Below are positions 6,655-24,525 of a DNA stretch of 29,427 nt, piece by piece. Both the position numbers and the translations under genes were made by a program. The notes under the pieces are model-generated. The model worked only from the letters and a program-made list of their open reading frames with translations. It ran no database searches and had not been told where the DNA came from. The DNA lies in IMG/VR virus record IMGVR_UViG_3300030104_001887, positions 1-29,427 of that record; one strand, 5' to 3'. The DNA comes from a virus. Position 1 is the first letter of the stretch. The number at the start of each line of letters is the position of its first letter.

Positions 6655-8867
6655 TGTACAAACAAACTTTATATAAAATAATCGAACCTGTAAAAAAGAC
6701 TACACTAAGTAGACTTAATAAGGGTAAAAAATGGAAATATGGATATGATAAAGAACACGATATTGTGGTTATCTCAAAAACGGGAAAAATTGGTGAAATA
6801 TATGAAATTCAAGGTTTGCGAATTGGCTTGCCGTTGGAACCAAAAGGAGTGTACGTGCACCCCAAAAACAAATGGGTAAAACAAGAATATCCTAAAGAAT
6901 TAAACAATATAAAAAACATATTTGATTGGAGAAACTATCCAGAGGAGAGTAAAGATCAATGGTTTGATTATATAGACGAAGAGTTTAAACGTAGAGATGA
7001 AGGTTTTTGGTTTATGAATAATAATAAATCAACTTATATAGTGGGAGCGCACTACATGTATTTACAATGGAGTAAAATAGATGTAGGTGCACCTGATTTT
7101 AGAGAAGCAAATAGATTATTCTTTATATTTTGGGAAGCCTGCAAGGCAGACAAAAGGTGTTATGGGATGTGTTACTTGAAAAACAGACGATCTGGTTTTT
7201 CTTTTATGAGTTCTGCCGAAACCGTTAATTTAGCCACTCTTGCAAGTGATAGTAGATATGGTATATTATCCAAAACAGGCGCAGATGCTAAAAAAATGTT
7301 TACTGACAAAGTAGTTCCAATTAGTATAAATTATCCTTTCTTTTTTAAACCAATACAAGACGGTATGGATAGGCCAAAGTCAGAGTTAGCTTATAGAGTG
7401 CCAGCAAGTAAGTTTACAAGAAAAAAGATTACAACTAACGAAAAGCTAGAAGACATACAAGGTTTAGATACAACTATTGACTGGAAAAATACCGGAGACA
7501 ATAGTTATGATGGTGAAAAACTAAACTTACTAGTACACGATGAAAGCGGTAAGTGGGAAAGACCAGATAACATATTAAATAACTGGAGAGTTACAAAAAC
7601 ATGTTTAAGGCTAGGTAGCAGAATAGTAGGTAAATGTATGATGGGCTCAACTTCCAACGCCTTAGACAAAGGTGGAGATAACTTTAAAAAACTATACAAT
7701 GCGTCCGATGTCACTAAGCGAAATAGAAATGGTCAAACAAGATCTGGTTTATACTCTTTGTTTATCCCAATGGAATGGAACTACGAAGGATTTATTGATG
7801 AGTATGGAGTTCCAGTATTCACTACTCCTGACACAGATGTGTTTGCCCCAGACGGTGAACTAATAGATATAGGTGTAATAGATAGCTGGCAAAACGAAGC
7901 TGATGGTTTAAAACAAGATCAAGATGCTTTAAACGAATTTTATCGTCAGTTTCCTAGAACTACGGAGCACGCTTTTCGAGATGAAACAAAAAACAGTATA
8001 TTTAACTTAGTTAAACTATACGAACAAATAGATTATAACGAGGAAATGTCTAGAACTTTAGGCGTTACAACTGGTAATTTTCAATGGGTTAACGGCATAA
8101 AAGATTCACAAGTAATTTATTATCCAGATCCAAAAGGTAGATTTAAACTTAGCTGGGTTCCACCTCAGCAATTACAAAATAGAGTGGTACTTAAAAACGG
8201 TGTAAAATATCCTGGTAATGAACACATGGGGGCATTTGGTTGTGACTCGTATGATATATCAGGGACTGTAGATGGTGTAGGTTCTAAAGGAGCATTACAC
8301 GGCTTAACCAGGTTTAGTATGGAGGACGCTCCTGCGAATAGCTTTTTTTTAGAATACTTATCAAGACCACCTACAGCTGAAATATTCTTTGAAGATGTTT
8401 TGATGGCGCTAGTGTTTTATGGTATGCCAATACTTGCAGAGAATAACAAACCACGTCTTTTGTATTATCTAAGGCGTAGAGGTTACAGAGGTTTTAGCAT
8501 GAATAGGCCAGATAAAGTATGGAACAAATTATCTGTAGCAGAAAAAGAAGTAGGTGGTATACCAAACTCTAGTGAAGATATAAAACAAGCTCATGCAGCT
8601 GCAATTGAAATGTATATTCAAAATCACGTAGGTATGAAGCAAGATGGAACGTTTGGAGACTTGTATTTTAATGAGCTACTAAACGATTGGAGTAGATTTG
8701 ATATAAACAAAAGAACAAAGCATGATGCATCTATAAGTTCTGGATTAGCTATAATGGCTAACAATAGACATTTGTATGCTCCAAATGCAAAGGTTGAAAA
8801 ACCAAAACTAAACATAAATATTTCCAAGTATAGTAATACTGGAACTAATTCACAAATAATCAAATAA
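6654..8867 (+). CDS. terL: Terminase large subunit (TerL)
   Basis: DNA-packaging motor: an ATPase joined to a nuclease that drives the genome into the prohead through the portal. At 737 residues it is at the long end of the family and similar to crAss-like enzymes. The ATPase motif YLKNRRSGFSF (~174-184) is the Walker A counterpart, but the usual lysine before Ser/Thr is replaced by Phe (G181-F182-S183); Lys176 or Arg178/179 may substitute. LLVHDES (~292-298) is Walker B with D296-E297. The nuclease domain shows CDSYDISG (D531), IFFEDVLMALVFYG and KHDASISSG (D691), the three acidic clusters of the RNase H-like fold. The start is in a TAATG overlap with the preceding gene, and the portal follows five bases later. 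Confidence 0.93.
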   Translation: MYKQTLYKIIEPVKKTTLSRLNKGKKWKYGYDKEHDIVVISKTGKIGEIYEIQGLRIGLPLEPKGVYVHPKNKWVKQEYPKELNNIKNIFDWRNYPEESKDQWFDYIDEEFKRRDEGFWFMNNNKSTYIVGAHYMYLQWSKIDVGAPDFREANRLFFIFWEACKADKRCYGMCYLKNRRSGFSFMSSAETVNLATLASDSRYGILSKTGADAKKMFTDKVVPISINYPFFFKPIQDGMDRPKSELAYRVPASKFTRKKITTNEKLEDIQGLDTTIDWKNTGDNSYDGEKLNLLVHDESGKWERPDNILNNWRVTKTCLRLGSRIVGKCMMGSTSNALDKGGDNFKKLYNASDVTKRNRNGQTRSGLYSLFIPMEWNYEGFIDEYGVPVFTTPDTDVFAPDGELIDIGVIDSWQNEADGLKQDQDALNEFYRQFPRTTEHAFRDETKNSIFNLVKLYEQIDYNEEMSRTLGVTTGNFQWVNGIKDSQVIYYPDPKGRFKLSWVPPQQLQNRVVLKNGVKYPGNEHMGAFGCDSYDISGTVDGVGSKGALHGLTRFSMEDAPANSFFLEYLSRPPTAEIFFEDVLMALVFYGMPILAENNKPRLLYYLRRRGYRGFSMNRPDKVWNKLSVAEKEVGGIPNSSEDIKQAHAAAIEMYIQNHVGMKQDGTFGDLYFNELLNDWSRFDINKRTKHDASISSGLAIMANNRHLYAPNAKVEKPKLNINISKYSNTGTNSQIIK

Positions 8868-8872
8868 TAAAT

Positions 8873-11293
8873 ATGGCATATTCTGGCATTAAAAGTTATT
8901 TTCCAAGTCAAACAGTAAGTGACGCTGAAAAGCTAAGTTATGATTATGGTTTAAAAGTAGCAAAAGCTATAGAAACAGAGTGGTTCAATAATGATAGAAG
9001 TCTTAATAGATACAAATCTAATCAAAATAACTTTCATAATCTAAGGTTGTACGCTAGAGGCGAGCAATCTATTCAAAAATATAAGGATGAGTTATCTATA
9101 AACGGTGATTTGTCCTATTTAAATTTAGACTGGAAACCAGTTCCAATTATATCTAAGTTTGTAGATATAGTTGTAAATGGTATGTCAGAAAGAATGTACG
9201 ATATAAAAGCTTACTCACAAGATCCTTACGGCGTTAATAAAAGAACTAGTTACATGAAGTCTATATTAGCAGACATGAGAACTAAAGATTTAAACGCTTA
9301 TACTGAGCAGGCTTTTGGTATACAAATAGCTGACAATGACCCAGAAACATTACCTGATTCAGAAGAAGAATTACAGTTACACATGCAGTTAACATATAAG
9401 CAAGCTGTAGAAATAGCTGAAGAACAAGCAATAAACACTCTTTTTGACGGTAATAAATATGATTTAATAAAAAAGAGATTTTACTATGATTTAACAGTGC
9501 TTGGTATTGGTGCTGTAAAAACAGGTTTTAATACTTCTGAAGGTGTTACTATAGATTACGTTGATCCAGCTAATCTAGTTTATTCTTATACTGACTCACC
9601 TTATTTTGATGATATATATTATGTTGGCGAAGTAAAATCTATACCTGTTAATGAATTAGCAAAACAATTTCCTCATTTATCAGAAAGTGATCTTGAAGAT
9701 ATAATGAAAAACAAATCATACAATAAAAACAATTACAACACTAGATACTCTGTAGACAAAGAAGATAATAATACTATTCAAGTTTTATATTTTAATTATA
9801 AAACTTATATGAACGAGGTTTACAAAGTAAAAGAAACTGGAACTGGAGCTGAAAAAATTATACCTAAAGACGATAACTTTGATCCTCCTAAAAATATGGA
9901 AGGTGGATATTCAAGATTATTAAGATCTATAGAGTGTTTATATGAAGGAGCAATGATAGTTGGTTCAAATAAACTATTAAAATGGGAGATGTCAAAGAAC
10001 ATGATGCGCCCTAAAAGTGATTACACTAAAGTTAAAATGAATTACGCTATTGTAGCACCTAGAGTTTATAATGGTAAAATTGACTCTCTAGTAAAGCGCA
10101 TAACTGGATTTGCTGACATGATACAACTAACTCATTTGAAACTACAACAAGTGTTATCGCGTATGGTTCCAGATGGAGTTTATTTAGACGCTGATGGTTT
10201 AGCTGAGGTTGATTTAGGTAATGGAACTAATTATAATCCACAAGAGGCTTTAAACATGTTCTTTCAAACGGGTTCTGTTATTGGAAGAAGTTTTACTTCA
10301 GAAGGAGATCAAAACCTAGGTAAAATACCTATTCAAGAAATTACATCCGGTAGCGGTGGTAATAAAATGCAAGCGCTTATAGGTAACTACAATTATTATT
10401 TACAAATGATAAGAGATGTAACTGGTCTTAATGAAGCTAGAGATGGTAGTTTACCTGATAAAAACGCTTTGGTAGGTGTACAAAAATTAGCAGCAGCAAA
10501 CTCAAATACAGCAACAAGACATATATTACAAGCAGGGTTATTTTTAACAGCTGAAACAGCTGAATGTTTATCTTTAAGAATATCTGATATATTAGAATAT
10601 TCTCCAACTGCCGATGCTTTTTTACAAGCTATAGGTGGACATAATTTAGCAACACTAAATGAAATGTCTGAGTTATATCTTTATGATTTTGGTATATTTT
10701 TAGAATTACAACCGGACGAAGAAGAAAAAGCAATGCTTGAAAATAACATACAAATGGCACTACAACAAAAAACTTTAGATTTAGAAGATGCTATAGATGT
10801 AAGAGAAATAAGAAATGTAAAGCTTGCTAATCAAGTTTTAAAGATTAGAAGAAAAAAGAAAATGGAACGTGATCAGTTAGCGCAACAACAAAACATACAA
10901 GCGCAAGCTCAAGCTAACGCACAGACACAGCAAGTTGCAGCTCAAGCTGAGGTTCAAAAAAATCAAGCTATAACACAAAGTCAAGCTGAATTAGAGCAGG
11001 TTAAATCTGGATTAAAAACTGAACAGATGGAACTAGAAGTTCAGCATAAAATGAGATTAATGCAATTTGAATTTGAAATTAATCAAAAGCTACAACAAAT
11101 GAACATGCAGGCTGTTGATATGAAAGATACAATGAAAGAAGACAGGAAAGACGAAAGGACTAGAATGCAAGCCTCACAGCAAAGTGAACTCATAGACCAA
11201 AGAAATAATAAAAAACCACCTAAAAACTTTGAGTCTTCGGGTAATGATATACTAGGTGGTGGCTTTGGATTAGGAAGGTTTGAGCCTAGTTAA
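8873..11293 (+). CDS. Portal protein
   Basis: Ring at the unique capsid vertex through which DNA enters and leaves. At 806 residues it is long, like portals of crAss-like and related podoviruses. The N-terminal half has FHNLRLYARGEQSIQKYKDE and LNLDWKPVPIISKFVDIVVN, the typical portal opening, and INTLFDGNKYDLIKKRFYYD. The central part includes LVKRITGFADMIQLTHLKLQ and IRDVTGLNEARDGS. The C-terminal ~660-770 is a Gln/Ala-rich coiled coil (AQQQNIQAQAQANAQTQQVA), followed by a disordered Gly-rich tail ending GGGFGLGRFEPS. It lies between terminase and scaffold-like genes in classical head-module order. The call rests on length, position and sequence pattern; a search would confirm it. Confidence 0.9.
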   Translation: MAYSGIKSYFPSQTVSDAEKLSYDYGLKVAKAIETEWFNNDRSLNRYKSNQNNFHNLRLYARGEQSIQKYKDELSINGDLSYLNLDWKPVPIISKFVDIVVNGMSERMYDIKAYSQDPYGVNKRTSYMKSILADMRTKDLNAYTEQAFGIQIADNDPETLPDSEEELQLHMQLTYKQAVEIAEEQAINTLFDGNKYDLIKKRFYYDLTVLGIGAVKTGFNTSEGVTIDYVDPANLVYSYTDSPYFDDIYYVGEVKSIPVNELAKQFPHLSESDLEDIMKNKSYNKNNYNTRYSVDKEDNNTIQVLYFNYKTYMNEVYKVKETGTGAEKIIPKDDNFDPPKNMEGGYSRLLRSIECLYEGAMIVGSNKLLKWEMSKNMMRPKSDYTKVKMNYAIVAPRVYNGKIDSLVKRITGFADMIQLTHLKLQQVLSRMVPDGVYLDADGLAEVDLGNGTNYNPQEALNMFFQTGSVIGRSFTSEGDQNLGKIPIQEITSGSGGNKMQALIGNYNYYLQMIRDVTGLNEARDGSLPDKNALVGVQKLAAANSNTATRHILQAGLFLTAETAECLSLRISDILEYSPTADAFLQAIGGHNLATLNEMSELYLYDFGIFLELQPDEEEKAMLENNIQMALQQKTLDLEDAIDVREIRNVKLANQVLKIRRKKKMERDQLAQQQNIQAQAQANAQTQQVAAQAEVQKNQAITQSQAELEQVKSGLKTEQMELEVQHKMRLMQFEFEINQKLQQMNMQAVDMKDTMKEDRKDERTRMQASQQSELIDQRNNKKPPKNFESSGNDILGGGFGLGRFEPS

Positions 11294-11321
11294 AAATTAT
11301 TAATTATTATTATATTATATT

Positions 11322-12482
11322 ATGGAAGAAAAAGATGAGCAAGTGGTTGAAGAAACTACCCAAGAAAACGTTACTAAAGTTGAGATTAATGAAACTCAAC
11401 AAGACAATAACATTACAAAAGTAAACTTAAATAAACCAACAATACCAGAAGAAAATGAAACTAAAGAAGATAGCGTTGACGACAGCGGAGTGGTTGCAGA
11501 GTCTGAAAATACCGAGCCCACACAAGAACAAGAAGAAGTACAACCGGAAGTTGAAACACAAGAAACTCCAGTATTAGAAGAAATTACTGAAGAAGTTGTT
11601 GAAGTAGAAGAACAAATAGAAGAAGCTATAGCAGAGGCAGAGGCTACCGGTGAGCCATTACCAGAGAATATTCAAAAGTTAATGGACTTTATGGAAGAAA
11701 CTGGTGGTGATTTAAGTGATTACGTGAAGCTTAATAAAGATTACTCAAAATTAGATGATCAAGATTTATTATACGAGTATTATAAGCAAACAAAACCACA
11801 CTTAAATGCAGAAGAAATTAACTTCCTTATGGAAGATCAATTCTCTTATGACGAAGAAGCAGACGAAGAAAGAGATATACGAAGAAAAAAATTAGCGTTA
11901 AAAGAGCAAGTTGCCAACGCTAAAAGCCACTTAGACGGGCAAAAGTCTAAATACTATGAAGAAATTAAAGCTGGTTCAAAGCTTACGAGTGAGCAACAGA
12001 AAGCAGTTGATTTCTTTAATAGATACAACAAAGAGTCAGAAGCAAATAAAAAAGCAGCAGAAAAACAAAAATCTACTTTTTTAAATAAAACTGAAAATGT
12101 TTTTAACGACAAATTCAAAGGTTTTGAATATAATGTTGGTGATAAAAAATATAGATTTAACGTTAACAATGCTAATGAGGTTAAAAATACCCAAAGCGAC
12201 ATTAATAATTTTGTCAAAAAGTTTTTGAATAAAAATAATGAAATGTCAGATGCTAAAGGTTATCATAAATCTTTATATACAGCAATGAATGCAGATGCTA
12301 TTGCAAAACACTTCTATGAACAAGGTAAGGCTGATGCTATGAAAGATAGCGTTGCTAAAGCCAAAAATGTTAATATGAACCCAAGACAAAGTCATGGGGA
12401 AATTAAAACAGGTGGTATGAAGTTTAAAGTGTTAGGTGATAATTCTTCTGATTTTAAGTTTAAAATTAAAAATAAAAAATAA
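11322..12482 (+). CDS. Acidic scaffold-like protein
   Basis: A 386-residue protein placed between portal and major capsid protein. Residues 1-120 are extremely Glu-rich and low in complexity (EEKDEQVVEETTQEN, EENETKEDSVDDSG, EEVVEVEEQIEEAIAEAEAT). The middle (~150-250) is helical and charged (EQVANAKSHLDGQKSKYYEE), and the C-terminus becomes basic, ending KVLGDNSSDFKFKIKNKK. An acidic N-terminus, helical core and basic C-terminal tail are the usual layout of internal scaffolds that template capsid assembly and contact the coat protein through the basic tail. No protease domain is seen. It starts with ATTATG after an A/T-only spacer. The scaffold role is inferred from position and composition. 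Confidence 0.65.
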   Translation: MEEKDEQVVEETTQENVTKVEINETQQDNNITKVNLNKPTIPEENETKEDSVDDSGVVAESENTEPTQEQEEVQPEVETQETPVLEEITEEVVEVEEQIEEAIAEAEATGEPLPENIQKLMDFMEETGGDLSDYVKLNKDYSKLDDQDLLYEYYKQTKPHLNAEEINFLMEDQFSYDEEADEERDIRRKKLALKEQVANAKSHLDGQKSKYYEEIKAGSKLTSEQQKAVDFFNRYNKESEANKKAAEKQKSTFLNKTENVFNDKFKGFEYNVGDKKYRFNVNNANEVKNTQSDINNFVKKFLNKNNEMSDAKGYHKSLYTAMNADAIAKHFYEQGKADAMKDSVAKAKNVNMNPRQSHGEIKTGGMKFKVLGDNSSDFKFKIKNKK

Positions 12483-12506
12483 ATAACAATTTAAAATTAC
12501 AAAATT

Positions 12507-14012
12507 ATGGCAATTACTCCAGGAGGTAGTTTAAATAGTGTTCCAGCTGCAAAGCAACAAACACTAGTTTCAAACTATCTTGATTTTACGGGTACCACAA
12601 ACACAACGTGGGCTCAACAATATTTACCAGATCTAATGGAAAAAGAAGCTGAAGTTTTCGGTCCGAGAACTATATCAGGATTTCTTTCACAAGTTGGAGC
12701 TGAAGAAGCGATGACTGCTGACCAAGTTGTTTGGTCTGAGCAAGGTCGTTTACATTTATCATACACAGGACATGTAGAGTCTGTTGGCTCTGGTGTTGAT
12801 AGTGTTGGTGAAATAACAATTGAAGGACACATTGACGCTAACGCAACTTACACTGCTGAATCTCATGGTATTAGAGTAAATGATACGGTTATCGTATCTA
12901 ACGCTGGTGGTACTATTAAAGGTTTAGTAACAGATGTTGCTGCTGATGTTATTGATGTAGCTCCTTACAACTCAGGTGCTGCTGGTTTTGCATCTGCAAT
13001 GAACATTTCAACTTCTAAGAAAACAACTATATTAGTTTATGGTTCTGAATACACTAAAGGTGTTGCTTACATGAACGGTGGTACTGCTACAACGCAAACT
13101 GATCAAAGAGGCGCTAACGAGCCTTCAGTTCAAACGTTTACTAATAAGCCAATCATTATGAAAGATTACTACGAAGTATCAGGTTCTGATACAGCTAGAA
13201 TTGGTTGGATTGAAGTTGCAGCTGAAGATGGTCAATCAGGTTACTTGTGGTATTTAAAAGCTGAGGCTGATACAAGAGCTAGATTTACTGATTACTTAGA
13301 AATGGCTATGTTAGAAGGTGAATTAAATGACGCTAACTCTGTAGCTGACTCTTCAAACGTAATGTACAACGCAGCACAGTCAACTGGTGGTAGTGGTACT
13401 GAAGGTTTGTTTGCTGCTATTGAATCTAGAGGTAATTTATCTTCTGGTATTACTGGTGGTGGCGCTGATTTAGCTGAGTTTGATGCTATTTTAGCTGAGT
13501 TTGATTCTCAAGGTGCTATTGAAGAAAATATGATGTTTGTAAACAGAGCTACTAGTTTAGCTATTGATGACATGTTAGCTTCAATGAATTCTTACGGAGC
13601 TGGTGGTACTTCTTACGGAGTATTTGACAACTCTGAAGATATGGCATTGAACTTAGGTTTCTCTGGATTTAGAAGAGGTTCTTATGACTTTTACAAATCT
13701 GACTTTAGATACTTAAATGACAAAGCAACAAGAGGTGGTATTAACGCGGCTGACACTGCTAACGCTATTAGAGGGGTTATTATTCCAGCTGGTACGTCTA
13801 CTGTTTATGACCAAATGTTAGGGAAAAACTTAAAGCGTCCGTTTTTACACGTTCGTTATAGAGCTTCTCAAACAGACGACAGACGAATGAAAACATGGGT
13901 TACTGGTTCGGTTGGAGCTGCTACAGCAGCGCTTGACGCAATGCAAATTCACATGCTTTCTGAAAGATGTTTAGTTACACAAGGTGCTAACAATTTCATG
14001 TTATTGAAATAA
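12507..14012 (+). CDS. Major capsid protein
   Basis: Shell-forming protein, 501 residues, presumably HK97-fold. The N-terminal arm (residues 1-60, AKQQTLVSNYLDFTGTTNTT, then WAQQYLPDLMEKEAEVFG) and GRLHLSYTGHV resemble coat proteins of crAss-like and marine Bacteroidota podoviruses. A beta-rich insertion (~105-180, VNDTVIVSNAGG) precedes the P-domain-like segment VQTFTNKPIIMKDYYEVSGS. The end, DRRMKTWVTGS to MQIHMLSERCLVTQGANNFM, fits the A-domain end of such proteins. Codon use is strongly GCT/GGT/ACT/TCT-biased, as in highly expressed genes. It starts with ATTATG and is followed by a strong terminator hairpin. The next closest alternative, a capsid accessory, is unlikely given length and position. 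Confidence 0.9.
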   Translation: MAITPGGSLNSVPAAKQQTLVSNYLDFTGTTNTTWAQQYLPDLMEKEAEVFGPRTISGFLSQVGAEEAMTADQVVWSEQGRLHLSYTGHVESVGSGVDSVGEITIEGHIDANATYTAESHGIRVNDTVIVSNAGGTIKGLVTDVAADVIDVAPYNSGAAGFASAMNISTSKKTTILVYGSEYTKGVAYMNGGTATTQTDQRGANEPSVQTFTNKPIIMKDYYEVSGSDTARIGWIEVAAEDGQSGYLWYLKAEADTRARFTDYLEMAMLEGELNDANSVADSSNVMYNAAQSTGGSGTEGLFAAIESRGNLSSGITGGGADLAEFDAILAEFDSQGAIEENMMFVNRATSLAIDDMLASMNSYGAGGTSYGVFDNSEDMALNLGFSGFRRGSYDFYKSDFRYLNDKATRGGINAADTANAIRGVIIPAGTSTVYDQMLGKNLKRPFLHVRYRASQTDDRRMKTWVTGSVGAATAALDAMQIHMLSERCLVTQGANNFMLLK

Positions 14013-14024
14013 GCACAATTATTT

Positions 14025-14061
14025 TAAAGAGTCGGGGCTTCGGCCTCGACCCTTTATTTTT
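14025..14061 (+). terminator. Intrinsic terminator after the capsid gene
   Basis: An 8-bp stem (GTCGGGGC with GCCTCGAC, one G-U pair) at 14031-14050 closed by a TTCG tetraloop (C-UUCG-G, the extra-stable type). After one A/C mismatch it extends five more pairs (TAAAG with CTTTA), and TTTTT follows at 14057-14061. GC content is far above that of its surroundings. The features of a rho-independent terminator or a transcript-stabilising 3' end are all present. It lies 13 bases after the capsid stop. Confidence 0.85.
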
Positions 14062-14085
14062 ATTAATTTTATTATATATTATATT

Positions 14086-14928
14086 ATGGCAAAAAAACAA
14101 AAAACAGAAAAGGTTGTAGAACCTTTAAAAGAAAAAAATCTTGAGCAAGAGGTTGCAACAATAGTTGAAGAACCAAAAGCAAGAGAAAGATTAAAACCAT
14201 CTAACGAGTGGGAAATAAAAGATAGAGTATATTATTTAACTGGTGAAAAAAAACCAATAACAAGATCAATTAAGTCTTCAAATATATATTGGTTTGACAA
14301 AGAAAAAGGATACGAAAGAGAACTTAAATATTGTCAAAATCAAAAAACTTCATTTGTTGATGAAATGAAAGGTGATCAAAGATTAGAGCATATAGTTTTT
14401 AGAAGTGGAGCTTTGTTTGTAGAAAAAGAAAAAACAGTTTTACAAAAATTATTATCTTTATATCATCCTCTTAGAGATAAAATTTACTACGAGTTTAAGC
14501 CTTCTGAAATAGCTGCAGATGAAATAGAAGTATTAGACGAGCAAGTTGATGCTTTAATAGCAGCTAGAAATATCGATATAGACATGGCTGAAGCTATTAT
14601 GCGTGTTGAAATTGGTTCTAGTGTTACTAACTTAAGTTCTAAGGAACTTAAAAGAGATTTATTAGTATTTGCTCGTAATAATCCTAAGTTGTTCTTAGAG
14701 TTAGCAGACGACGAAAATGTAATGTTAAGAAACTTTGGTATTAGAGCGGTAGAAGCTGGTATACTAAGATTATCTTCTGATCAAAGAAACTTTTTGTGGG
14801 GTAAAAATGGTAGAAAACTAATGGTTATACCATTTGACGAACATCCTTACACTGCTTTAGCACACTGGTTTAAAACTGATGAAGGTATGGAGATTTACTC
14901 TAATATTGAAAAAAGATTAAACAACTAA
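14086..14928 (+). CDS. Conserved phage protein following the capsid gene
   Basis: A 280-residue charged protein. Residues 1-45 form a Lys/Glu-rich disordered tail (EKVVEPLKEKNLEQEVATIV). From ~50 a domain begins (WEIKDRVYYLTGEKKPITRS, IKSSNIYWFDKEKG), with the segment RLEHIVFRSGALFVEKEKTV and then LQKLLSLYHPLRDKIYYEF, patterns I associate with a conserved virion-module protein of marine podoviruses. A helical region LIAARNIDIDMAEAIMRVEI and an ending HPYTALAHWFKTDEG follow. There is no catalytic motif or membrane span. It sits between the capsid gene and the connector genes, flanked on both sides by UNCG-capped hairpins. The function is unknown; a head-completion or assembly role is inferred from position. 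Confidence 0.65.
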   Translation: MAKKQKTEKVVEPLKEKNLEQEVATIVEEPKARERLKPSNEWEIKDRVYYLTGEKKPITRSIKSSNIYWFDKEKGYERELKYCQNQKTSFVDEMKGDQRLEHIVFRSGALFVEKEKTVLQKLLSLYHPLRDKIYYEFKPSEIAADEIEVLDEQVDALIAARNIDIDMAEAIMRVEIGSSVTNLSSKELKRDLLVFARNNPKLFLELADDENVMLRNFGIRAVEAGILRLSSDQRNFLWGKNGRKLMVIPFDEHPYTALAHWFKTDEGMEIYSNIEKRLNN

Positions 14929-14934
14929 TTTAAC

Positions 14935-14973
14935 TGTAGATGCGATCGCTCTACGGAGCGATTGCAAACTACA
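14935..14973 (+). promoter_or_regulatory. UNCG-capped stem-loop in the leader of the next small gene
   Basis: A 10-bp stem GCGATCGCTC with GAGCGATTGC (one G-U) at 14942-14965, loop TACG closed by C-G (a UNCG tetraloop), flanked by T14941-A14966, a small internal loop, and an outer five-bp stem TGTAG/CTACA (14935-14939 with 14969-14973). No T-run follows, so it is not a classical terminator. It lies 12 bases before the preferred start of the next gene and could be a processing or stability element or a protein-binding site. Confidence 0.6.
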
Positions 14974-14984
14974 ACCTACATTAT

Positions 14985-15158
14985 ATGGAAAAATCTAAAG
15001 GACTAGGTGATTCAATAGAAAAATTTACAAAAGCCACAGGAATAAAACAGTTTACTCAGGTTCTAGCTGCAAATGGAGTGTTTGGTAAAAAGAAAAATTG
15101 TGGATGTAACAAGAGAAAAGATCAATTAAACAAAGCTTTTCCTTATAAAAATAAATAA
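14985..15158 (+). CDS. Small CGC-motif phage protein
   Basis: A 57-residue basic protein: MEKSKGLGDSIEKFTKATGI, a helical middle, then KKKNCGCNKRKDQLNKAFPY and KNK. The combination GLGD.IEK...TGIK with CGCNKRK..LNK.FPY is a recurring small-protein pattern in phages and prophages; the two cysteines (39 and 41) could take part in metal binding or a disulfide, but this is not established. The ATG at 14985 is preferred over an in-frame ATG at 14940, because the latter lies in a stable stem-loop and adds a fifteen-residue stretch not seen in the pattern. It is followed six bases later by the connector-like gene. Role unknown. Confidence 0.65.
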   Translation: MEKSKGLGDSIEKFTKATGIKQFTQVLAANGVFGKKKNCGCNKRKDQLNKAFPYKNK

Positions 15159-15164
15159 AAAATT

Positions 15165-15905
15165 ATGGCGGTAAGCGTAGACACAGTATATCAAAAAGTT
15201 TTAGCATTAGCTAATAAAGAGCAAAGAGGATATGTAACTCCACAAGAGTTTAATTTATTTGCTGATCATGCGCAAATGGAAATATTAGAACAATATTTTT
15301 ATGATATAAATCAGTTTAACAAGATGTCTGGTAATAACACTGACTTTGCAGATCCTTTAACTTTAATTCAAGAAAAATTAAGTAAATTAGAAAAAATAAC
15401 TATAAACACAAGTGTCGATGAAACAGGTTTTACTCCATTATTTTCAGGTAGTGGCAACATATATAAGTTAGGAACTGTAACAGGTTCATTAAGTAACACT
15501 AATACTGATTATCAAAATATAGAAGTTCAAGAGGTAAGTTACGAAGAGTGTAAACTTATGGAACAAACAAGCATTACTAAGCCGCATTTTAAACGACCTG
15601 TATATTATAAATATGCAAATGGAATTAAAATAAAGCCTATTATGACTGTTGATCCAGCTAATCCATATAAAATCGATTATAATTTTATTAAAAGACCAGC
15701 TAAACCTAATTGGAATTTTGTTATAGTAAATAATAAACCACTTTATAATGGTAACACATCTACAGATTTTGAGCTACACGAAGCAGAAGAAATAGAGTTG
15801 GTATACAGAATATTAAAATTAGCTGGTATAAATTTAAGAGCTCAAGAAATAGTTCAAGTTGGACAAACTTTAGAGCAAACGCAAATTCAACAAGAAAAAC
15901 AATAA
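15165..15905 (+). CDS. Putative head-tail connector or ring protein
   Basis: A 246-residue protein. The N-terminus MAVSVDTVYQKVLALANKEQ followed by GYVTPQEFNLFADHAQMEI is a conserved opening of neck-module proteins of marine podoviruses, with a long helical region at ~1-75. A beta-rich middle (EKITINTSVDETGFTPLFS) follows, then YYKYANGIKIKPIMTVDPAN and IDYNFIKRPAKPNW, and a C-terminal helix (VYRILKLAGINLRAQEIVQV). It begins with ATTATG, and four bases separate it from the next connector gene. The helix-plus-beta layout and position between capsid and tail genes favour a portal-adjacent ring. The exact structural role is not determined from sequence. Confidence 0.65.
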   Translation: MAVSVDTVYQKVLALANKEQRGYVTPQEFNLFADHAQMEILEQYFYDINQFNKMSGNNTDFADPLTLIQEKLSKLEKITINTSVDETGFTPLFSGSGNIYKLGTVTGSLSNTNTDYQNIEVQEVSYEECKLMEQTSITKPHFKRPVYYKYANGIKIKPIMTVDPANPYKIDYNFIKRPAKPNWNFVIVNNKPLYNGNTSTDFELHEAEEIELVYRILKLAGINLRAQEIVQVGQTLEQTQIQQEKQ

Positions 15906-15909
15906 ATAA

Positions 15910-17340
15910 ATGGCATTACTAGATAACACTACACAACACGATTATTATCAAGGTAACGATTTTGGTAATTATCAATTTATTTCTTTATCAGATATAATAA
16001 ATCAATTTATGTTAATTTACGTAGGTGAAGATAAAATTGTATCAAAAGCGAAAAGATTAGACGTTGCGTTTCACGCTCAAAGAGCTTTAGCAGAATTATC
16101 ATTTGATACGTTTAAATCTTGTAAATCACAAGAAATTACAGTTCCAGCTACGTTGCAAATGACGCTTCCACAAGATTATGTAAACTACACTAAAGTTAGT
16201 TGGGTGGATTCTGCTGGTATAAAACATTTAATTTACCCAACAACAAAAACATCTAACCCACCAAATCCATTTCAAAATGACAGTGGAGACTTTGAATTAT
16301 CAGTGACTGCGTTATCAACTCCTGGGTCAAATGAACTTTTAGTTAATGTAACGAATACTAGTTTAAGTTTAGGTAGCAATAACCACGAAGTATTAAACAA
16401 TAGTATACACGTAGGTATGCCTTGCCAATTTGAGGGAGATGACGTTGAATATACTATAAAAAGTTTTGATCAAACAGCTGGATCACATACTGTTATTATT
16501 TTAGTAGATTCTAGTGGTATTGAGTTTGTTGCCCCGCTAATAAACACTCCTACTACTCCAACTAATTTATATAGAAAATTAATATTTAGAAATTTAGATG
16601 GTAGTTTGTTTAATGACTTTAGTAATATTACTCATTTTGATAATTTTACACATACCGTAGGTGATAATTTCTTTACCTTTAATGCAGAAGCTACTTCTGA
16701 TTTTAACAATATAGAACCTGGTATGATTATAAGCGTAGATGACGAAGAAGGTTTTGGTGTTGTTTTAAGTATAGATAATGGTTATTTAGGTTCTACTATT
16801 CGTCCAACTATATATTTTGAAGACAATTTTACTAATTTATCGTCTGGTACTAATTTACATCTAACTTTTTCAGGTGGTACACCTGACGAATCTACCACCT
16901 GGTCTAATTATAAGTCAAATACCCGATCTGAAAATAACAACGACGATTATGAAGATGATACTTATTGGCCAATGCACGGTGAAAGATATGGGTTAGATCC
17001 TCAACACGCTCAAGCTAATGGATCTTTTTATATAGACTGTAATTTAGGAAAAATACATTTTAGTTCTAATATTTCTGGAAAAACTGTAGTTTTAGAATAC
17101 ATAAGCGACAGTTTAGGAACTGAACAAGAAATGAAAGTTCATAAATTTGCAGAAGAAGCAATGTACCGTTGGATATTACATGCTATTGCGTCTGGTAGAA
17201 TTCAAACTCAACAAATAGTACCTAGACTTAAAAAAGAAAAATTTGCTGCTGTTAGACAAGCAAAATTAAGATTATCTAATATAAAATTAGAAGAATTAAC
17301 TCAAATACTTAGAGGTAAATCTAAGTGGATAAAACACTAA
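15910..17340 (+). CDS. Putative head-tail adaptor (tail tubular A-like)
   Basis: A 476-residue protein of the neck. The N-terminal helical part NYQFISLSDIINQFMLIYVG followed by DKIVSKAKRLDVAFHAQRAL resembles T7 gp11-like adaptors; TVPATLQMTLPQDYVNYTKV is the following conserved beta segment. A large beta-rich insertion at about 110-340 is unusual in length. The conserved ending (MYRWILHAIASGRIQTQQIV, then KEKFAAVRQAKLRLSNIKLE and ELTQILRGKSKWIKH) is a signature of these proteins in marine and crAss-like phages. GERYGLDPQHAQANGSFYID (~358-377) is a further landmark. It ends three bases before the large tail-hub gene. The adaptor role follows from family pattern and order. Confidence 0.75.
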   Translation: MALLDNTTQHDYYQGNDFGNYQFISLSDIINQFMLIYVGEDKIVSKAKRLDVAFHAQRALAELSFDTFKSCKSQEITVPATLQMTLPQDYVNYTKVSWVDSAGIKHLIYPTTKTSNPPNPFQNDSGDFELSVTALSTPGSNELLVNVTNTSLSLGSNNHEVLNNSIHVGMPCQFEGDDVEYTIKSFDQTAGSHTVIILVDSSGIEFVAPLINTPTTPTNLYRKLIFRNLDGSLFNDFSNITHFDNFTHTVGDNFFTFNAEATSDFNNIEPGMIISVDDEEGFGVVLSIDNGYLGSTIRPTIYFEDNFTNLSSGTNLHLTFSGGTPDESTTWSNYKSNTRSENNNDDYEDDTYWPMHGERYGLDPQHAQANGSFYIDCNLGKIHFSSNISGKTVVLEYISDSLGTEQEMKVHKFAEEAMYRWILHAIASGRIQTQQIVPRLKKEKFAAVRQAKLRLSNIKLEELTQILRGKSKWIKH

Positions 17341-17343
17341 TAC

Positions 17344-20300
17344 ATGCCAGAAATTAAGCATACGTTTAGCGGCGGGAAAATGAATAAAGATCTCGACGAA
17401 AGAATTATTCCAAAAAATGAATATGTAGACGCCATGAACATACAAGTGTCAACTTCTGAAGATTCTGAGGTTGGTACTGCTCAAAACATATTAGGTAATA
17501 AAGAAATAGAAGGTCCAATACCTTCAGATGCTATTACTATAGGCGTAGTTTCAGATGAAAAAATAGACGCTTTGTACTACTTAATATGGTCCAAAGACGC
17601 TCACTACATAGTTGCTTATTACAAAGGCAGCTCAACTCCAACTCCAATTTTAGTAGATTTAAATTTAGACGTTTTAAGATTTGATCCAAATATGATTATA
17701 ACTGGTATTAACGTTATAGACGACATGTTGTTTTGGACAGATAATAGAAATGAACCTAAAAAAATAAATATACCTAGATGTAGAACAGGTACAAATAACG
17801 ACTGGAATACTCATACAAAATTAATTAATGAAAGCCAGTCAAGTTTAGGTTGGTCAAATATAGATATAGAAGAAAAACACATTACTGTAATTAAAAAAGC
17901 GCCAGTAACACCTTTATCAATGCGCTTAGAAAAATCTAGAGACCCTAACAAAATATATACTGGTGTTATTACTATAAGCGCTGATGATAGTATTGATAAT
18001 TCTTTTCCAGACACTACAATACACGATTTTTCTGGTTTTTCTGTTGACGATACTTTTGCTATTGAAATAACAGCAGGTCTTGTTGGAAATACTATTCAAA
18101 CCATAGGTCCTGTTGGTTCTGCACTTCCTACTAATCCGGGTCTTACCGGTTGGCATGATGGTATTGGTGTTGGTCAAGGTGCTATTCCTGCGGGTACTAA
18201 AATTGTTTTTAAACCATTTAACGAAAATGGCACTGCACCTGGAATACCAGTTACGGATTATGTTATAAAAGGTATTGTTGAAAACGTAGACCCAAGTGAT
18301 CCAGCTGTTAACACTTATAACGATGGTATATTAGTAAGAATATTAAGTATAGACGGTTATCCACCTACAACCCCTGATGAAGAAGATACTCTTAATTATG
18401 TTGTAGATTTATTTGAAGAAACTGAAAATTTATTTGAATTTAAATTTCCTAGGTTTTCATATAGATATAAATACGAAGACGGAGAATATTCTCCATTTGG
18501 TCCTTTTACTCAGGTAGCGTTTGCTCCTGGGGCTTTTGATTATCACCCTAGAAAAGGTTATAATATTGGAATGACGAATAATATAACTAAAGTACATTTA
18601 AGTGGACTTGTAAATGATTTTACTCCGAAAGATGTAGTTTCTGTAGATATTTTATTTAAAGATGAACCATCTCCTGTTATATATATAGTAGATACTATTA
18701 GAGCTGACAATGTTACAAATCTTTCAAGCGGAAATAACATGTGGCAAAGTCTTTTGCAACAAGGCGCTGCTTTTACAATTAAATCAGAAACAATTAACGG
18801 TGTAGTACCTTCTAATCAATTGTTAAGACCTTGGGATAATATTCCTAGAAAAGCATTAGCGCAAGATGTTACTGGTAGTAGAATAGTTTATGGTAATTAT
18901 GTTCAAAATTATGATTTATTAGCGCCAGGCGGTGAAAAATACGTTGCTGATTTTACTGTAAATTGGCACCAAGATGATACCTATGATATGATGGATGGTC
19001 TTATTATAACTGATGAAAACTCAGGTGTTGGTAAATCAATAAAATCGTTAAGAGAATATCAACTAGGTGTTGTTTTTACAGATAAATACGGTAGAGAAAC
19101 ACCTGTTATATCTAACACAACTGGTTCTATAAAACTAGAAAAAGATAGAGCAAGTCTAAACAATAGACTCCAGGTTAATGTAAACAATCAACTATTACAA
19201 AGCAACTTAACTTCAATTGAATATTTTAAATTTTACATTAAAGAAACAGCTGGTGAATACTACAACATGGCTATGGATCGTTTTTACGATGCTGAAGATA
19301 GTAATATTTGGTTATCGTTTCCTTCTTCAGACAGAAATAAAATAGATATAGACACGTTTTTAATTTTAAAAAAAGGATCTGAATCAGATGATTTAATTGC
19401 AGATGCTGCTAGATATAAAGTTATAGCTATTGAAAACGAAGCGCCAGATTTTATAAAAACCACTAGGATGAAAGCTTCATCTGTGACTCACAATTCAAGT
19501 ACTAATCCTATATTTGAGTCTGGTAGCACTGGTAATGCCCCGGTAATTGGTGAAGATGAGTTTGAATTAAGTTATAATGCTTATCACGGAACAGCGGGGC
19601 AAAACCTACATACATATACAGAAGGTGAGTTGTATATTGAATTTGGAAAAACTGGAGAAACTGAAGTTTCTAAAAGATATAAAATAGCATCAATATCAAC
19701 AAATTGGGATGGAACAAGTGCAGATTTAGCTGATGCAAAATATTCTATCAAATTAGCTGAAACATTAGATTCTGATGTTAATTTTATAACTGACGATCCT
19801 ACTGGCACAAACTCTAATGAAATTGAAAACGGAGCTATAGTAAATATATATAAATATAAAGTAGAAAACAAACCTCAATTTGATGGTAAGTTTTTTGTTA
19901 AAATATTTTCTGATGATATATTTAGAACAAATATAAGCTTGTCTTTTGCAGATGGTTTAGATCTTAGAGTAACTGAATCAAGACAGGTGTATTACATGGA
20001 TGAAAATCAACACGCTCGCCATACGTCAGATCTTAACAATTTTTTAACGGATGGTTATTCTAACAATGATGGAACTGACTTTAATCCAATTACTGAGGAG
20101 TTTGATAATATTTGGGGTTATTACGCTAATGATGAGTTTGCTTCATTTGCTTTATATTTTAGAAGATATAATAAAAGTAACTTTATACAATCAGCACCTG
20201 CAATAGGAATGAACGACGTATCAACAGGCCCTAATGATCCGCGTCCAGTTTTACAACACTTATCGCTAGGCAATTCAGCTATGATACCTGCAATGGCTAG

Positions 20301-23300
20301 TAGTTTTGAGGATGTTGATGTTTCTTACTTAGATGAAGATTGGGGAGCGCAAGAATATTGGTATAAAGAATATGGAGCTTACGGAACTGGTCAATTTGCC
20401 TGGCAACAAGGGTATACAGCTAATTTTCAATCTAATAGTGGTCTTGCTTCTATAAACCCGCCTACATATGCAAATGAGGGCGTTGGCGCTTATATTGAAA
20501 ACACAGATCACACGAGTCAATCTGATAACCCTAGAGATACTGAAGTTTGGTTTATAGACGCAGGTCCATACAAAGGATATAGAACTACAGATAATGATTT
20601 GTATTTCGATGGTGTTGATGTAGTTGATACCCTCGATACAAATAATACATCTGAGACTTACGAAGCTGGAATTACTTTAGGTGGTGGATACTGGGGCATG
20701 GAACTAGCATTTGGTGGAATATTTGGTAGCAAGCACCATACTTACTGGCCTACTGTAAACCCCGAAATTGAAGGATTTTTTAATGTTGGCGATTGGAATA
20801 ATACAGGTGGCGCAGCATCTAATCCAAAGTATATAGACGCAGTTACTAAAGATTTTGTAAATAGTATAAACACTGGTTATCGTTTTAGATGGAGAGAAGA
20901 TCCAACAAAAACTGTTTATACTATTGATAGCGTTGCTGAAAGAAGAAAATTAAGACATAGTGATTTAAGATTCAAAGAAGTATACCCAGTTCCTTCGATT
21001 GCGTCTGAAAACGCAAACAGAAGTATGGCTGAAGCTGTTTCTTTTAACTTTACAAAAGGTTGGGGAATGACTGGTATTTCACCTGGTTTAGGCGGCACTA
21101 GTTGGAACCCTGTTGTTGATGGTCCAGTTCAAAGTGGTCTTAAAATAAAGCTTCAAGCTGTAGATAGTGCAGGTGGTAACACTGGTGATAGTTGTCCACC
21201 AGCTGGCTTTAGTGATGACGTTATAATATTTGTTTCAACTTTAAGTGGTGATAATTCTGGTGGTGGTGACGCCACTACAGCTAGAATACATAAGGGTATG
21301 GCATTAGAAGCATATACAACTGGCGGAACAAACTCAGATTTAGCAACTCATTTAGGTGGTCAAGATTATTTGGTTGTAAGATATATAGAAAAGCTAAACA
21401 ATGGAACTGATGATTATTTTGCATTATACTTAGGTGGGTATAACGCGCCAATGAGTGGTATTGATCACTTAATATCTGACACAAGAAAACCAGATCTTGG
21501 AGTTAGTGAGGGTCTTACTTTTGTACAAGTGGGTATGAATGGTTATAGTCCAAATTCTGAATTTAACATAAACACAATGTTAAATAATAGCGGTGCTATT
21601 GGCGCGGTTGGTTATCGTATGGAGTTTGTAGAAGATGTTGAACCAGAAGAAATTATATCTGAAAACCCAGCTATATTTGAAACAGAACCTAAAGAAATAA
21701 AAGAATTAGATATATATTATGAAGCTAGTGGAGCTATACCAATAGTGTTAAAAAGTTCAAATGTTCATGAAGCATTTCCTTTAAACTCATTTTTTATGGA
21801 TATAACCTCTACACCAAACAACTTGATGGCACACGTGGTTGTAGGTTATAATGGTCTAGATTTAATAGTTGATAGTCCTACCACTGGATTTATTCCTTCC
21901 GTTGCAAACGTTGGTGGCGTTTATGATATTTATTTACCAGATCGTACTTCTATGCAAGTTCAAATAACAGGCGTTACTGATAACACACCTGTTGGACAAT
22001 CAACAATATCAATAAATCCAAATTTATATAATAATAAAGTTAAGTTATCTTGGCATAACTGTTATTCTTTTGGAAATGGAGTAGAGTCTAACAGAATTCG
22101 TGATAACTTTAATTTACCATTTATTAGTAATGGTGTAAAGGTGTCCACAACACTAGAGTATGATTACGAAGAAGAACACAGAAAATATGGTTTAATATAC
22201 TCTGGTATATACAACTCTGTTAGTGGTGTAAATGATACAAACCAGTTTATTGCTGCGGAAAAAATTACAAAAGATATAAACCCTATATATGGTAGTATTC
22301 AAAAACTACACTCTAGAGATAGCGATTTAGTAACATTATGTGAAGATAAAGTATTAAGAATACAAGCTAATAAAGATGCTTTATTTAACGCTGATGGAAG
22401 CTCTAATGTTACGGCTAGCTCTAATGTTTTAGGTCAAGCAATACCTTTTAGTGGAGAATATGGAATATCTACAAATCCAGAATCATTTGCATCGGAATCA
22501 TACAGGGCTTATTTTAGCGATAAAGTTAGAGGAACAATAATGAGATTATCTAAAGATGGCTTAACCCCAATATCAGATCATGGTATGAAAGATTGGTTTA
22601 GAGATAACTTAAAAATTTGTCGTAATATTATAGGTAGTTACGATGATAGAAACGACGAGTACAACGTTAAAGTAGAAAAGTATTATTTAACAGATTTATC
22701 TGGTCAAAATAGTGGTTGGATAAATAACCGTGGCAACGGTACAAATATAAATATACAAAATATTATTGCTGGAGGTGGTGTTGACGAAGAAAGTGGTATT
22801 AACTATACTGTAAAAGATGAATCTAAAGTTTTATCATTTAAAGAAGATGTTAAAGGTTGGGTTAGTTTTAAATCTTTTACTGACATGCAGCTAGGTGTTA
22901 GTATGGCTAATGATTATTACACTTTTAAAACAGGGAAACTATATAAACATTACGATGAGACTGGGCCAAGAAATACATTTTATTCTACTTTCACACCATC
23001 TTCGGTTGATGTAGTTTTAAATGAAGCTCCTAGTTTTACAAAAGTTTTTCATACAATAAACTATGAAGGCAGTAAAGCAAAAGTAGATAAATTTAAAAAC
23101 GAATCAATACCTTATTTAGATGATAGTTATGACATGACACCTGTTAACTACAGTGATCAAGAGTATTATAATTTATCATCAAAAAAAGGTTGGTATTTAG
23201 AATCTATTACTACAGATAAAGAAGATGGATATATTAATGAGTTTTTAGAAAAAGAAAGTAAGTGGTTTAATTATGTTAAAAAACAAATTAACACTTGTTT

Positions 23301-24126
23301 ACAAGATGCTGACACTGGTGACTTTTCTTTTCAAGGCATAGGTATTGTTAGTGGTTATAACCCAATGATTCCGGCTGACTCTTGGCCAGATGATCCGTTA
23401 GGCGATATTATATGTACTCCAGAAACTATTTTAGACACTACTATCACAACTTTTGATATAGGAGGAGATGTAGAGGTTGATGAAGATATTTTTGAACCTG
23501 ATATTATTGTAATTGATGATGGTATTGGTGGTGGTGGTCAACAAGATTCTGGAGAAGACGGAATTCTTGACGGTGATGATAGTGTTATTGATACTGATTT
23601 TGATGATGGTATAATTAACGTTGAAGATCCTATTGAATTTGATGATCCTGTAGAAGCCGATCCAGACATTATTGATGATTTTCAAACAGAAATTGAAATT
23701 TATGGATGTACGGATCCAACTGCGTTTAACTATAATCCTAACGCAACTATTGATGATGGAGATTGTGTCGCTGTAATAAGTGGATGTACAGATCCAAATG
23801 CATTTAATTATAACGCTGATGCAAATATAAATACTGGTTGTTTATACCTTGGATGTATAGACCCAACTGCAATTAATTATAATCCAAATGCTATTATAGG
23901 TTGTGATATTACCGGTAGTAACGCATGTTGCGAGTATGATACTGGCTCTGGAGAAAGTGGAGGTGGAACAGCTATGGGCGCGCCTATGCCTACATCAACA
24001 AGTCTTGCAGAAATAGTTACAAATTTAGATATTCCTAGATCACCACAAGTAACAAGTGAAGAAGAAGAAGAAGAAGAACTATTAAGAATAAGAAGAAATA
24101 TAAGAACAAATAGAACTAACTACTAA
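17344..24126 (+). CDS. Very large tail stabilisation/tail-hub protein
   Basis: At 2,260 residues it is much longer than typical tail tubular B or stabilisation proteins (usually below ~1,500). The N-terminus FSGGKMNKDLDERIIPKNEY followed by DAMNIQVSTSEDSEVGTAQN and a propeller-like beta region matches that family. The conserved core returns at ~1650-1760: KLHSRDSDLVTLCEDKV, GEYGISTNPESFASESYRAY (~1704-1723), FSDKVRGTIMRLSKDGL and SDHGMKDWFRDNLK. The intervening ~600-1,600 residues are beta-rich and probably inserted domains. Residues ~2030-2119 form an Asp-rich linker, followed by three GCTDPTAFNYNPNA-type repeats (from 2121, 2147 and 2170) and a Glu/Arg tail. It closes the neck and forms the tail; the C-terminus may face the host surface. 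The gene follows the adaptor by three bases. Confidence 0.8.
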   Translation: MPEIKHTFSGGKMNKDLDERIIPKNEYVDAMNIQVSTSEDSEVGTAQNILGNKEIEGPIPSDAITIGVVSDEKIDALYYLIWSKDAHYIVAYYKGSSTPTPILVDLNLDVLRFDPNMIITGINVIDDMLFWTDNRNEPKKINIPRCRTGTNNDWNTHTKLINESQSSLGWSNIDIEEKHITVIKKAPVTPLSMRLEKSRDPNKIYTGVITISADDSIDNSFPDTTIHDFSGFSVDDTFAIEITAGLVGNTIQTIGPVGSALPTNPGLTGWHDGIGVGQGAIPAGTKIVFKPFNENGTAPGIPVTDYVIKGIVENVDPSDPAVNTYNDGILVRILSIDGYPPTTPDEEDTLNYVVDLFEETENLFEFKFPRFSYRYKYEDGEYSPFGPFTQVAFAPGAFDYHPRKGYNIGMTNNITKVHLSGLVNDFTPKDVVSVDILFKDEPSPVIYIVDTIRADNVTNLSSGNNMWQSLLQQGAAFTIKSETINGVVPSNQLLRPWDNIPRKALAQDVTGSRIVYGNYVQNYDLLAPGGEKYVADFTVNWHQDDTYDMMDGLIITDENSGVGKSIKSLREYQLGVVFTDKYGRETPVISNTTGSIKLEKDRASLNNRLQVNVNNQLLQSNLTSIEYFKFYIKETAGEYYNMAMDRFYDAEDSNIWLSFPSSDRNKIDIDTFLILKKGSESDDLIADAARYKVIAIENEAPDFIKTTRMKASSVTHNSSTNPIFESGSTGNAPVIGEDEFELSYNAYHGTAGQNLHTYTEGELYIEFGKTGETEVSKRYKIASISTNWDGTSADLADAKYSIKLAETLDSDVNFITDDPTGTNSNEIENGAIVNIYKYKVENKPQFDGKFFVKIFSDDIFRTNISLSFADGLDLRVTESRQVYYMDENQHARHTSDLNNFLTDGYSNNDGTDFNPITEEFDNIWGYYANDEFASFALYFRRYNKSNFIQSAPAIGMNDVSTGPNDPRPVLQHLSLGNSAMIPAMASSFEDVDVSYLDEDWGAQEYWYKEYGAYGTGQFAWQQGYTANFQSNSGLASINPPTYANEGVGAYIENTDHTSQSDNPRDTEVWFIDAGPYKGYRTTDNDLYFDGVDVVDTLDTNNTSETYEAGITLGGGYWGMELAFGGIFGSKHHTYWPTVNPEIEGFFNVGDWNNTGGAASNPKYIDAVTKDFVNSINTGYRFRWREDPTKTVYTIDSVAERRKLRHSDLRFKEVYPVPSIASENANRSMAEAVSFNFTKGWGMTGISPGLGGTSWNPVVDGPVQSGLKIKLQAVDSAGGNTGDSCPPAGFSDDVIIFVSTLSGDNSGGGDATTARIHKGMALEAYTTGGTNSDLATHLGGQDYLVVRYIEKLNNGTDDYFALYLGGYNAPMSGIDHLISDTRKPDLGVSEGLTFVQVGMNGYSPNSEFNINTMLNNSGAIGAVGYRMEFVEDVEPEEIISENPAIFETEPKEIKELDIYYEASGAIPIVLKSSNVHEAFPLNSFFMDITSTPNNLMAHVVVGYNGLDLIVDSPTTGFIPSVANVGGVYDIYLPDRTSMQVQITGVTDNTPVGQSTISINPNLYNNKVKLSWHNCYSFGNGVESNRIRDNFNLPFISNGVKVSTTLEYDYEEEHRKYGLIYSGIYNSVSGVNDTNQFIAAEKITKDINPIYGSIQKLHSRDSDLVTLCEDKVLRIQANKDALFNADGSSNVTASSNVLGQAIPFSGEYGISTNPESFASESYRAYFSDKVRGTIMRLSKDGLTPISDHGMKDWFRDNLKICRNIIGSYDDRNDEYNVKVEKYYLTDLSGQNSGWINNRGNGTNINIQNIIAGGGVDEESGINYTVKDESKVLSFKEDVKGWVSFKSFTDMQLGVSMANDYYTFKTGKLYKHYDETGPRNTFYSTFTPSSVDVVLNEAPSFTKVFHTINYEGSKAKVDKFKNESIPYLDDSYDMTPVNYSDQEYYNLSSKKGWYLESITTDKEDGYINEFLEKESKWFNYVKKQINTCLQDADTGDFSFQGIGIVSGYNPMIPADSWPDDPLGDIICTPETILDTTITTFDIGGDVEVDEDIFEPDIIVIDDGIGGGGQQDSGEDGILDGDDSVIDTDFDDGIINVEDPIEFDDPVEADPDIIDDFQTEIEIYGCTDPTAFNYNPNATIDDGDCVAVISGCTDPNAFNYNADANINTGCLYLGCIDPTAINYNPNAIIGCDITGSNACCEYDTGSGESGGGTAMGAPMPTSTSLAEIVTNLDIPRSPQVTSEEEEEEELLRIRRNIRTNRTNY
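23701..23937 (+). repeat. Three GCTDP-type protein repeats
   Basis: Three diverged repeats start at 23704, 23782 and 23851 within the large tail gene, coding GCTDPTAFNYNPNA, GCTDPNAFNYNADA and GCIDPTAINYNPNA, each closed by Cys. This repeat is widespread in secreted Bacteroidota proteins. The pattern G-C-x-D-P-x-A-x-N-Y-N-x-x-A recurs with conserved Cys spacing of roughly 18-20 residues. DNA sequences of the copies have diverged, so duplication is not recent. Confidence 0.85.
24058..24078 (+). repeat. GAA trinucleotide run
   Basis: Seven perfect GAA codons encode a Glu run near the C-terminus of the tail-hub protein, just before an Arg-rich end. Such runs can vary in length by slippage; here it simply extends an acidic stretch. 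Confidence 0.7.
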
Positions 24127-24135
24127 ATAACAAGT

Positions 24136-24525
24136 ATGATTTTAATAACTTTAAACTTAACAGATATAAATACTTCTTTACAAGTTGGTGATTTAGTATA
24201 TGCTAGAGAAACTATGACACAAGTTGGGGCAAGTAATCCACAAACAGGCCCAGATGCTTCTACGGGTACTGGATCAAATCATTTAGTAGGTGTATTAAGA
24301 AAAATTGAAGATCAAGGCGGTTTGTTTAGATTATTTGTTGATAACGCTATGCTGGCTGGAGCTACCTACACGCCTAGCGTAAATGATTTTCTTATGTTTT
24401 CAAAATATTCTCAAGGCGATAGCGGTGTGCTTGGGTACTACGCAAGAGCTAAACTAGTAAATAACTCTCAAGATAAAGCAGAAATTTTTGCGGTTAGCAG
24501 TGAAATAATAATAAACAGTAAATAA
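24136..24525 (+). CDS. Small putative tail-module protein
   Basis: A 129-residue protein, beta-rich: ILITLNLTDINTSLQVGDLV opens a barrel-like region, followed by HLVGVLRKIEDQGGLFRLFV and TPSVNDFLMFSKYSQGDSGV, then LGYYARAKLVNNSQ and AEIFAVSSEIII. GDLVY and VGVLRKIE resemble the pattern of small virion proteins found between stabilisation and fibre-like genes in related phages. No signal peptide or catalytic motif is seen. It lies nine bases after the tail-hub stop and two bases before the next large structural gene. The most likely role is a small tail or baseplate component, from context only. Confidence 0.55.
   Translation: MILITLNLTDINTSLQVGDLVYARETMTQVGASNPQTGPDASTGTGSNHLVGVLRKIEDQGGLFRLFVDNAMLAGATYTPSVNDFLMFSKYSQGDSGVLGYYARAKLVNNSQDKAEIFAVSSEIIINSK

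Follow-up and report, generated by a model that had tools for sequence, protein, structure and literature searches.

A GCTDP-repeat cassette at the C-terminus of a predicted crassvirus-type muzzle protein

The window analyzed here is a viral stretch of 29,427 nucleotides. A large open reading frame in it (ORF 17344-24126) ends in an acidic segment followed by tandem GCTDP repeats, which raises the question of what kind of phage protein carries such an extension, where the repeats come from and what they contribute to infection. The first-pass annotation had placed these features at 23431-24126, and the location proved correct, corresponding to residues 2030-2260 of the ORF product.

Identity of the gene and anatomy of its C-terminus

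The ORF product matches the Pfam family PF25729 (crAss_MUZ_C) at 35-38 bits against a gathering cut-off of 27, and phrog_14478, a virion structural protein family, with an E-value of 1.6e-130. In tblastn searches it was linked to structural proteins of Cellulophaga, Flavobacterium and Tenacibaculum phages; gp97 of phage phi38:1, annotated as a virion structural protein, is a homologue. Genes for terminase, portal and two virion structural proteins (phrog_13977 and phrog_14543) lie upstream. Given the crAss_MUZ_C match and the structural homologues, the protein previously labeled a tail hub is, by sequence, the muzzle protein of a marine crassvirus-allied podophage, where "crassvirus-allied" refers to the nearest cultured relatives and does not assert membership of the order Crassvirales. 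These relatives are the flavobacterial podophages phi38:1 (Pervagoviridae), Gundel (Pachyviridae) and Elemovirus. The muzzle of phi-crAss001 forms a hexameric tail-tip assembly that gates ejection and is thought to touch the cell surface (PMC10172136). Homology to the muzzle and to gp97 of phi38:1 thus indicates that the repeat tract lies at the tail tip, on a structural protein of the virion, which agrees with the earlier proposal of a repeat module on a phage virion protein. Sequence and fold searches of the muzzle body against the PDB gave no match; the C-terminal muzzle body was poorly modeled (pLDDT 55), and a fold search with this model was uninformative. The window also contains GroEL-like and GroES-like genes (48-1178 and 5844-6425; phrog_5725 and phrog_13932).

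The features of the gene and its surroundings are collected in Table 1. The acidic core of the linker, ~90 residues long (2031-2120), is, as originally described, dominated by Asp (24 residues), Ile (16), Gly (11) and Glu (9); 37% of its residues are acidic and none is Lys or Arg, compared with 8% Asp and 6% Glu in the muzzle body. Three repeat units were likewise recovered by a unit HMM built from a seed without the window units, and the array fits the tandem pattern GCxDxxAxNYxxxA...C. However, the motif GCTDPxAxNYNPxA with which they had been described holds only in part, since GCTDP opens units 1 and 2 only and NYNPxA occurs in units 1 and 3 only. At the DNA level the other units share 67-74% identity with unit 1 and are therefore old duplicates rather than an assembly artefact. 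Comparison with the sister contig L012 (muzzle body 81% identical), in which a GCTD unit follows the body almost directly with no acidic linker, identifies the Asp-rich linker as private to the window phage. Among 47 measured extensions, 45 have no more than 14 acidic residues in their most acidic 60-aa stretch, versus 24 in the window.

Table 1. Coordinates of the features in the window and of secreted array protein examples on related contigs
Feature	Position	Strand	Residues	Basis or remark
Muzzle (nozzle) protein, crassvirus gp44 type, by homology	17344..24126	+	2260 aa	PF25729 crAss_MUZ_C, phrog_14478, tblastn
crAss_MUZ_C domain	22963..23280	+	1874-1979	Pfam
FSFQGIG, conserved end of muzzle body	23323..23343	+	1994-2000	relatives diverge after
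Linker, lineage-specific	23344..23703	+	2001-2120	acidic core 2031-2120
GCTDP unit 1, GCTDPTAFNYNPNATIDDGDC	23704..23766	+	2121-2141	HMM 41.6 bits, i-E 4e-11
GCTDP unit 2, GCTDPNAFNYNADANINTGC	23782..23841	+	2147-2166	HMM 21.0 bits, i-E 1e-4
GCTDP unit 3, degenerate, GCIDPTAINYNPNAIIGCDITGSNACC	23851..23931	+	2170-2196	HMM 24.7 bits, i-E 8e-6
C-terminal tail ending EEEEEEE/Arg-rich	23944..24123	+	2201-2260
Putative detached muzzle C-terminal domain	24136..24525	+	129 aa	fused forms, phrog_18548, hhalign
Secreted array protein, contig L209	7543..9912			22 contigs in alignment A2
Secreted array protein, contig L197	7798..9912			same alignment

The C-terminal slot in related phages

A scan of viral contigs yielded 80 muzzle relatives, and 68 muzzles whose end could be read were classed by their C-terminal state. 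They can be aligned through the FSFQGIG motif and diverge completely beyond it. Half of them (34) carry a GCTDP array, with the number of units ranging from 1 to 21 and the tract reaching ~1200 aa; some arrays, such as that of the L038 muzzle, are interspersed with fn3 domains (Pfam). The array is not essential, since 19 muzzles are short and stop within about 45 aa. Seven have other tracts, including Big_9, low-complexity Ser/Gly/Pro (L006) and acidic (L002) sequences, six are fused to a further domain, and two are lost to the contig end. On the muzzle-body tree, array presence requires nine changes, and at least six of these are forced by well-supported branches; L006, L014 and L018 group with the window phage. 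Judged from these states and this tree, the C-terminal slot of the muzzle is a cassette site at which the array has been repeatedly gained and lost and the content swapped. No GCTDP array was found in the cultured relatives of the window phage. Some extensions are of other kinds. The L059 muzzle (ORF 8998-18084) ends in a Hint domain of the hedgehog/intein type (PT-HINT, E 1.2e-9) preceded by one GCTDP-like unit, and L287 (334-3201, minus strand), L276, L282 and L289 have unclassified, apparently beta-rich muzzle extensions of 600-900 aa with no GCTDP units.

The six fused muzzles, as well as those of the outgroups, end in a domain of ~110 aa that corresponds to the small ORF 24136-24525 of the window, and phrog_18548 matches both pieces, the muzzle and this ORF. 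The fused form is probably the ancestral muzzle C-terminus, because the ORF product is homologous to the last ~110 aa of the phi38:1, elemo and Gundel muzzles (hhalign probability 98.7%, E 1.7e-16). Where phages have an array, the detached domain usually starts 4-24 nt downstream of the muzzle; the array therefore sits at the point where the muzzle body and its old C-terminus have come apart. Readthrough of the muzzle TAA into ORF 24136 was considered and rejected: the two share a frame in the window, but the variable gap length in relatives led us to treat this as a coincidence.

The window muzzle and gp44 of phi-crAss001 (PMC10172136) have in common crAss_MUZ_C, a large tail-tip virion protein and length variation. 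In gp44, however, the variation resides in crass and IG2 domain insertions, whereas here it takes the form of a C-terminal cassette, and the old C-terminal domain has become a separate gene.

The repeat and its occurrence outside the muzzle

The repeat has the consensus VYGCTDPTATNYDPNATVDDGSCI and a unit of ~21 aa with two near-invariant cysteines; the Cys, GC, N and A positions are strongly kept. It matched no family in Pfam or NCBIfam, a literature search with the motif string found no relevant paper, and an assignment of the window tract to BACON, TSP3 or another named repeat family was rejected for want of a Pfam or NCBIfam match. When the window repeats were searched by themselves against PDB sequences, nothing beyond chance matches came up. 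In contrast, a 100-row three-unit profile searched against the whole PDB matched perforin-2/MPEG1 only, at its truncated EGF-like module (E 2e-4). The window units were modeled by AlphaFold2 at pLDDT 91, and the Foldseek PDB matches were again to MPEG-1 only, one of them with 0.9 A rmsd over 22 residues, at weak E-values above 1. With sequence and predicted fold concurring, the resemblance of the repeat to the truncated EGF-like module of perforin-2 appears convincing. This module (PMC6989145, PMC7593815) aligns with one GCTDP unit along its length; it acts as a single-copy hinge in an animal pore-forming protein, whereas the GCTDP units are bacterial or viral and occur in multiple copies. The counterpart in MPEG1 comprises residues 329-354 of PDB 6u2j, a stretch of an animal immune protein that resembles a bacterial surface repeat in sequence and fold.

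Among genomes, the best 80 matches to the repeat came nearly all from Flavobacteriales MAGs. The host array proteins have signal peptides (judged by eye), and six of the seven tested contain a T9SS sorting domain, two of them together with SprB repeats and fn3. Strong arrays occurred in 24 of 100 evenly drawn Flavobacteriales genomes versus none of 148 Bacillota genomes, a count that leaves out the seed genome; a single 3.8-Mb genome contains 175 repeat matches. The genome profile search thus bears out the view that secreted proteins of Bacteroidota, especially Flavobacteriales, use the repeats as a module. Distant relatives from outside the Bacteroidota phages do not all carry them; yet the only annotated phages with the repeat are Synechococcus phage S-CAM3 and AG-345-P14 (Kyanoviridae), which carry it in structural proteins, that of S-CAM3 near tail-fibre genes. 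The repeat is therefore mainly, not exclusively, a Bacteroidota feature, and the Kyanoviridae units possibly reflect an independent acquisition on a virion. In these proteins (L242 5566-7116 in S-CAM3, L243 3586-5139 in AG-345-P14), two to three GCTDP units precede a long C-terminal part with an Ig-like look. A host-to-phage direction of transfer is plausible, though units of 20 aa cannot be placed on a tree.

Function of the tract and its significance

We consider it probable that the array is an exchangeable adhesive cassette on the muzzle C-terminus, serving as an exposed, variable contact with the host envelope. Each ~21-aa unit would fold as a small module of the truncated EGF type, with its two near-invariant cysteines as the staple, and six copies of the tract would project beyond the tail tip; a position outside the tail is suggested because the longest tracts could hardly fit the channel. 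With the muzzle gate still closed, the tracts may touch the flavobacterial envelope in a multivalent manner. That envelope carries the same repeats and would be the likely source of the phage units, while the Asp-rich linker may act as a flexible charged spacer. The surface-contact role suggested at the outset fits such a hypervariable tract, and some of the alternative or interspersed domains of the slot (Big_9, fn3) are adhesin-like. Against the contact role, many related phages, the cultured ones among them, manage with no array, and the disulfides would need to form extracytoplasmically, after lysis.

The array could instead be passive filler: a spacer, a shield or a mimic, lengthening or covering the muzzle tip with no specific host ligand. 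The order and number of units are not conserved, and low-complexity or acidic tracts can replace the cassette, as in L006 and L002; however, filler would not need the strict conservation of the Cys, GC, N and A positions, several replacements or companions of the array are Ig or fn3 adhesin-like domains, and the units specifically match the host surface repertoire, all of which make this explanation unlikely. Far less credible is a calcium-dependent contact through an RTX/TSP3-like acidic linker and repeat; the first-pass annotation had suggested a possible calcium dependence from the linker and from DxDxDG-like stretches. An acidic linker is indeed present and a DDG triad closes canonical units, but the muzzle protein contains no DxDxDG (the nearest string is DTDFDDG at residue 2083), the triad is missing from window units 2 and 3, and no calcium-binding Pfam family was matched. 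What is left in favor is essentially the linker, which the sister phage lacks and whose acidity nearly all measured extensions fall far short of; calcium dependence is thus not supported.

A further explanation arises from the best viral array proteins, most of which are not muzzles. On contigs that also carry the muzzle they form a conserved secreted family with a signal peptide (by eye), about 10-16 units and the module PYWLNDPCYAWVIDVDxYCC... The muzzle array and such a phage-secreted protein could act jointly, the tail docking onto GCTDP surfaces through homotypic or shared-ligand binding and the secreted protein coating the cell against superinfection, which we regard as improbable; it is just as doubtful that the array protein, exported by the T9SS, recoats the infected cell and so masks receptors or blocks competitors. 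For a matched pair speak the presence of the same muzzle on 24 of 50 IMG/VR contigs chosen for their best-matching array proteins, the signal peptide, a T9SS type A sorting domain (TIGR04183/PF18962; best E 1e-12) in 6 of 22 secreted array proteins, and the occurrence of the secreted-protein module in 10 of 26 muzzle-selected contigs of at least 30 kb, including those of the tree neighbors L006, L014 and L018. However, coupling is weak because the muzzle array is missing from most contigs that encode the secreted protein, and the gene for the latter is absent within the 29-kb window, whose muzzle has no sorting-domain match. Moreover, muzzle and secreted units of one genome are not clearly closer to each other than units across genomes (0.633 vs 0.622, p = 0.08), a result on which gene conversion between the two arrays of one phage was also rejected.

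The secreted protein is host-like in sequence, although L090, the genome contig it matches best, may itself come from a phage and have been binned into a MAG. The other 16 of the 22 proteins have a different C-terminus, in most cases a short ITDLLGRP...IYxDGTVERKLIK tail that also occurs in some Flavobacteriales proteins. On L209, the Cys-rich secreted array gene is preceded upstream by a thioredoxin-like gene (6734-7099, just under the Pfam cut-off), which is possibly relevant to disulfides.

The closest precedent for the favored adhesive cassette is the BACON repeat (PMC6949934), a domain of Bacteroidota secreted proteins that crAss-like phages carry as tandem copies on tail-associated proteins and that has been proposed to aid binding. 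A T9SS sorting domain was also present in one BACON ORF, and in the literature searched this is the sole paper joining crAss-like phages with the T9SS. The GCTDP repeat differs in being an unrelated ~21-aa Cys unit that is not Ig-like, in its location on the muzzle itself, and in its occurrence in marine phages with fast-changing array length. In "Cryophage" (PMC7468147), genes were described whose products carry T9SS type A sorting domains and presumably rely on host secretion; the cargo there consists of enzymes and PA14 proteins, whereas relatives of the window phage, though not the window itself, encode array proteins.

How crassvirus-type tail tips recognize cells is not established, and the GCTDP cassette offers a specific, swappable and testable tract at this site. 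A widespread repeat, unnamed in Pfam and NCBIfam, is now given a structural template in perforin-2. The cassette also connects the tail tips of phages with the surface proteins that ocean Flavobacteriales export through the T9SS, and it may provide a sequence handle on host range for phages that have no culture.
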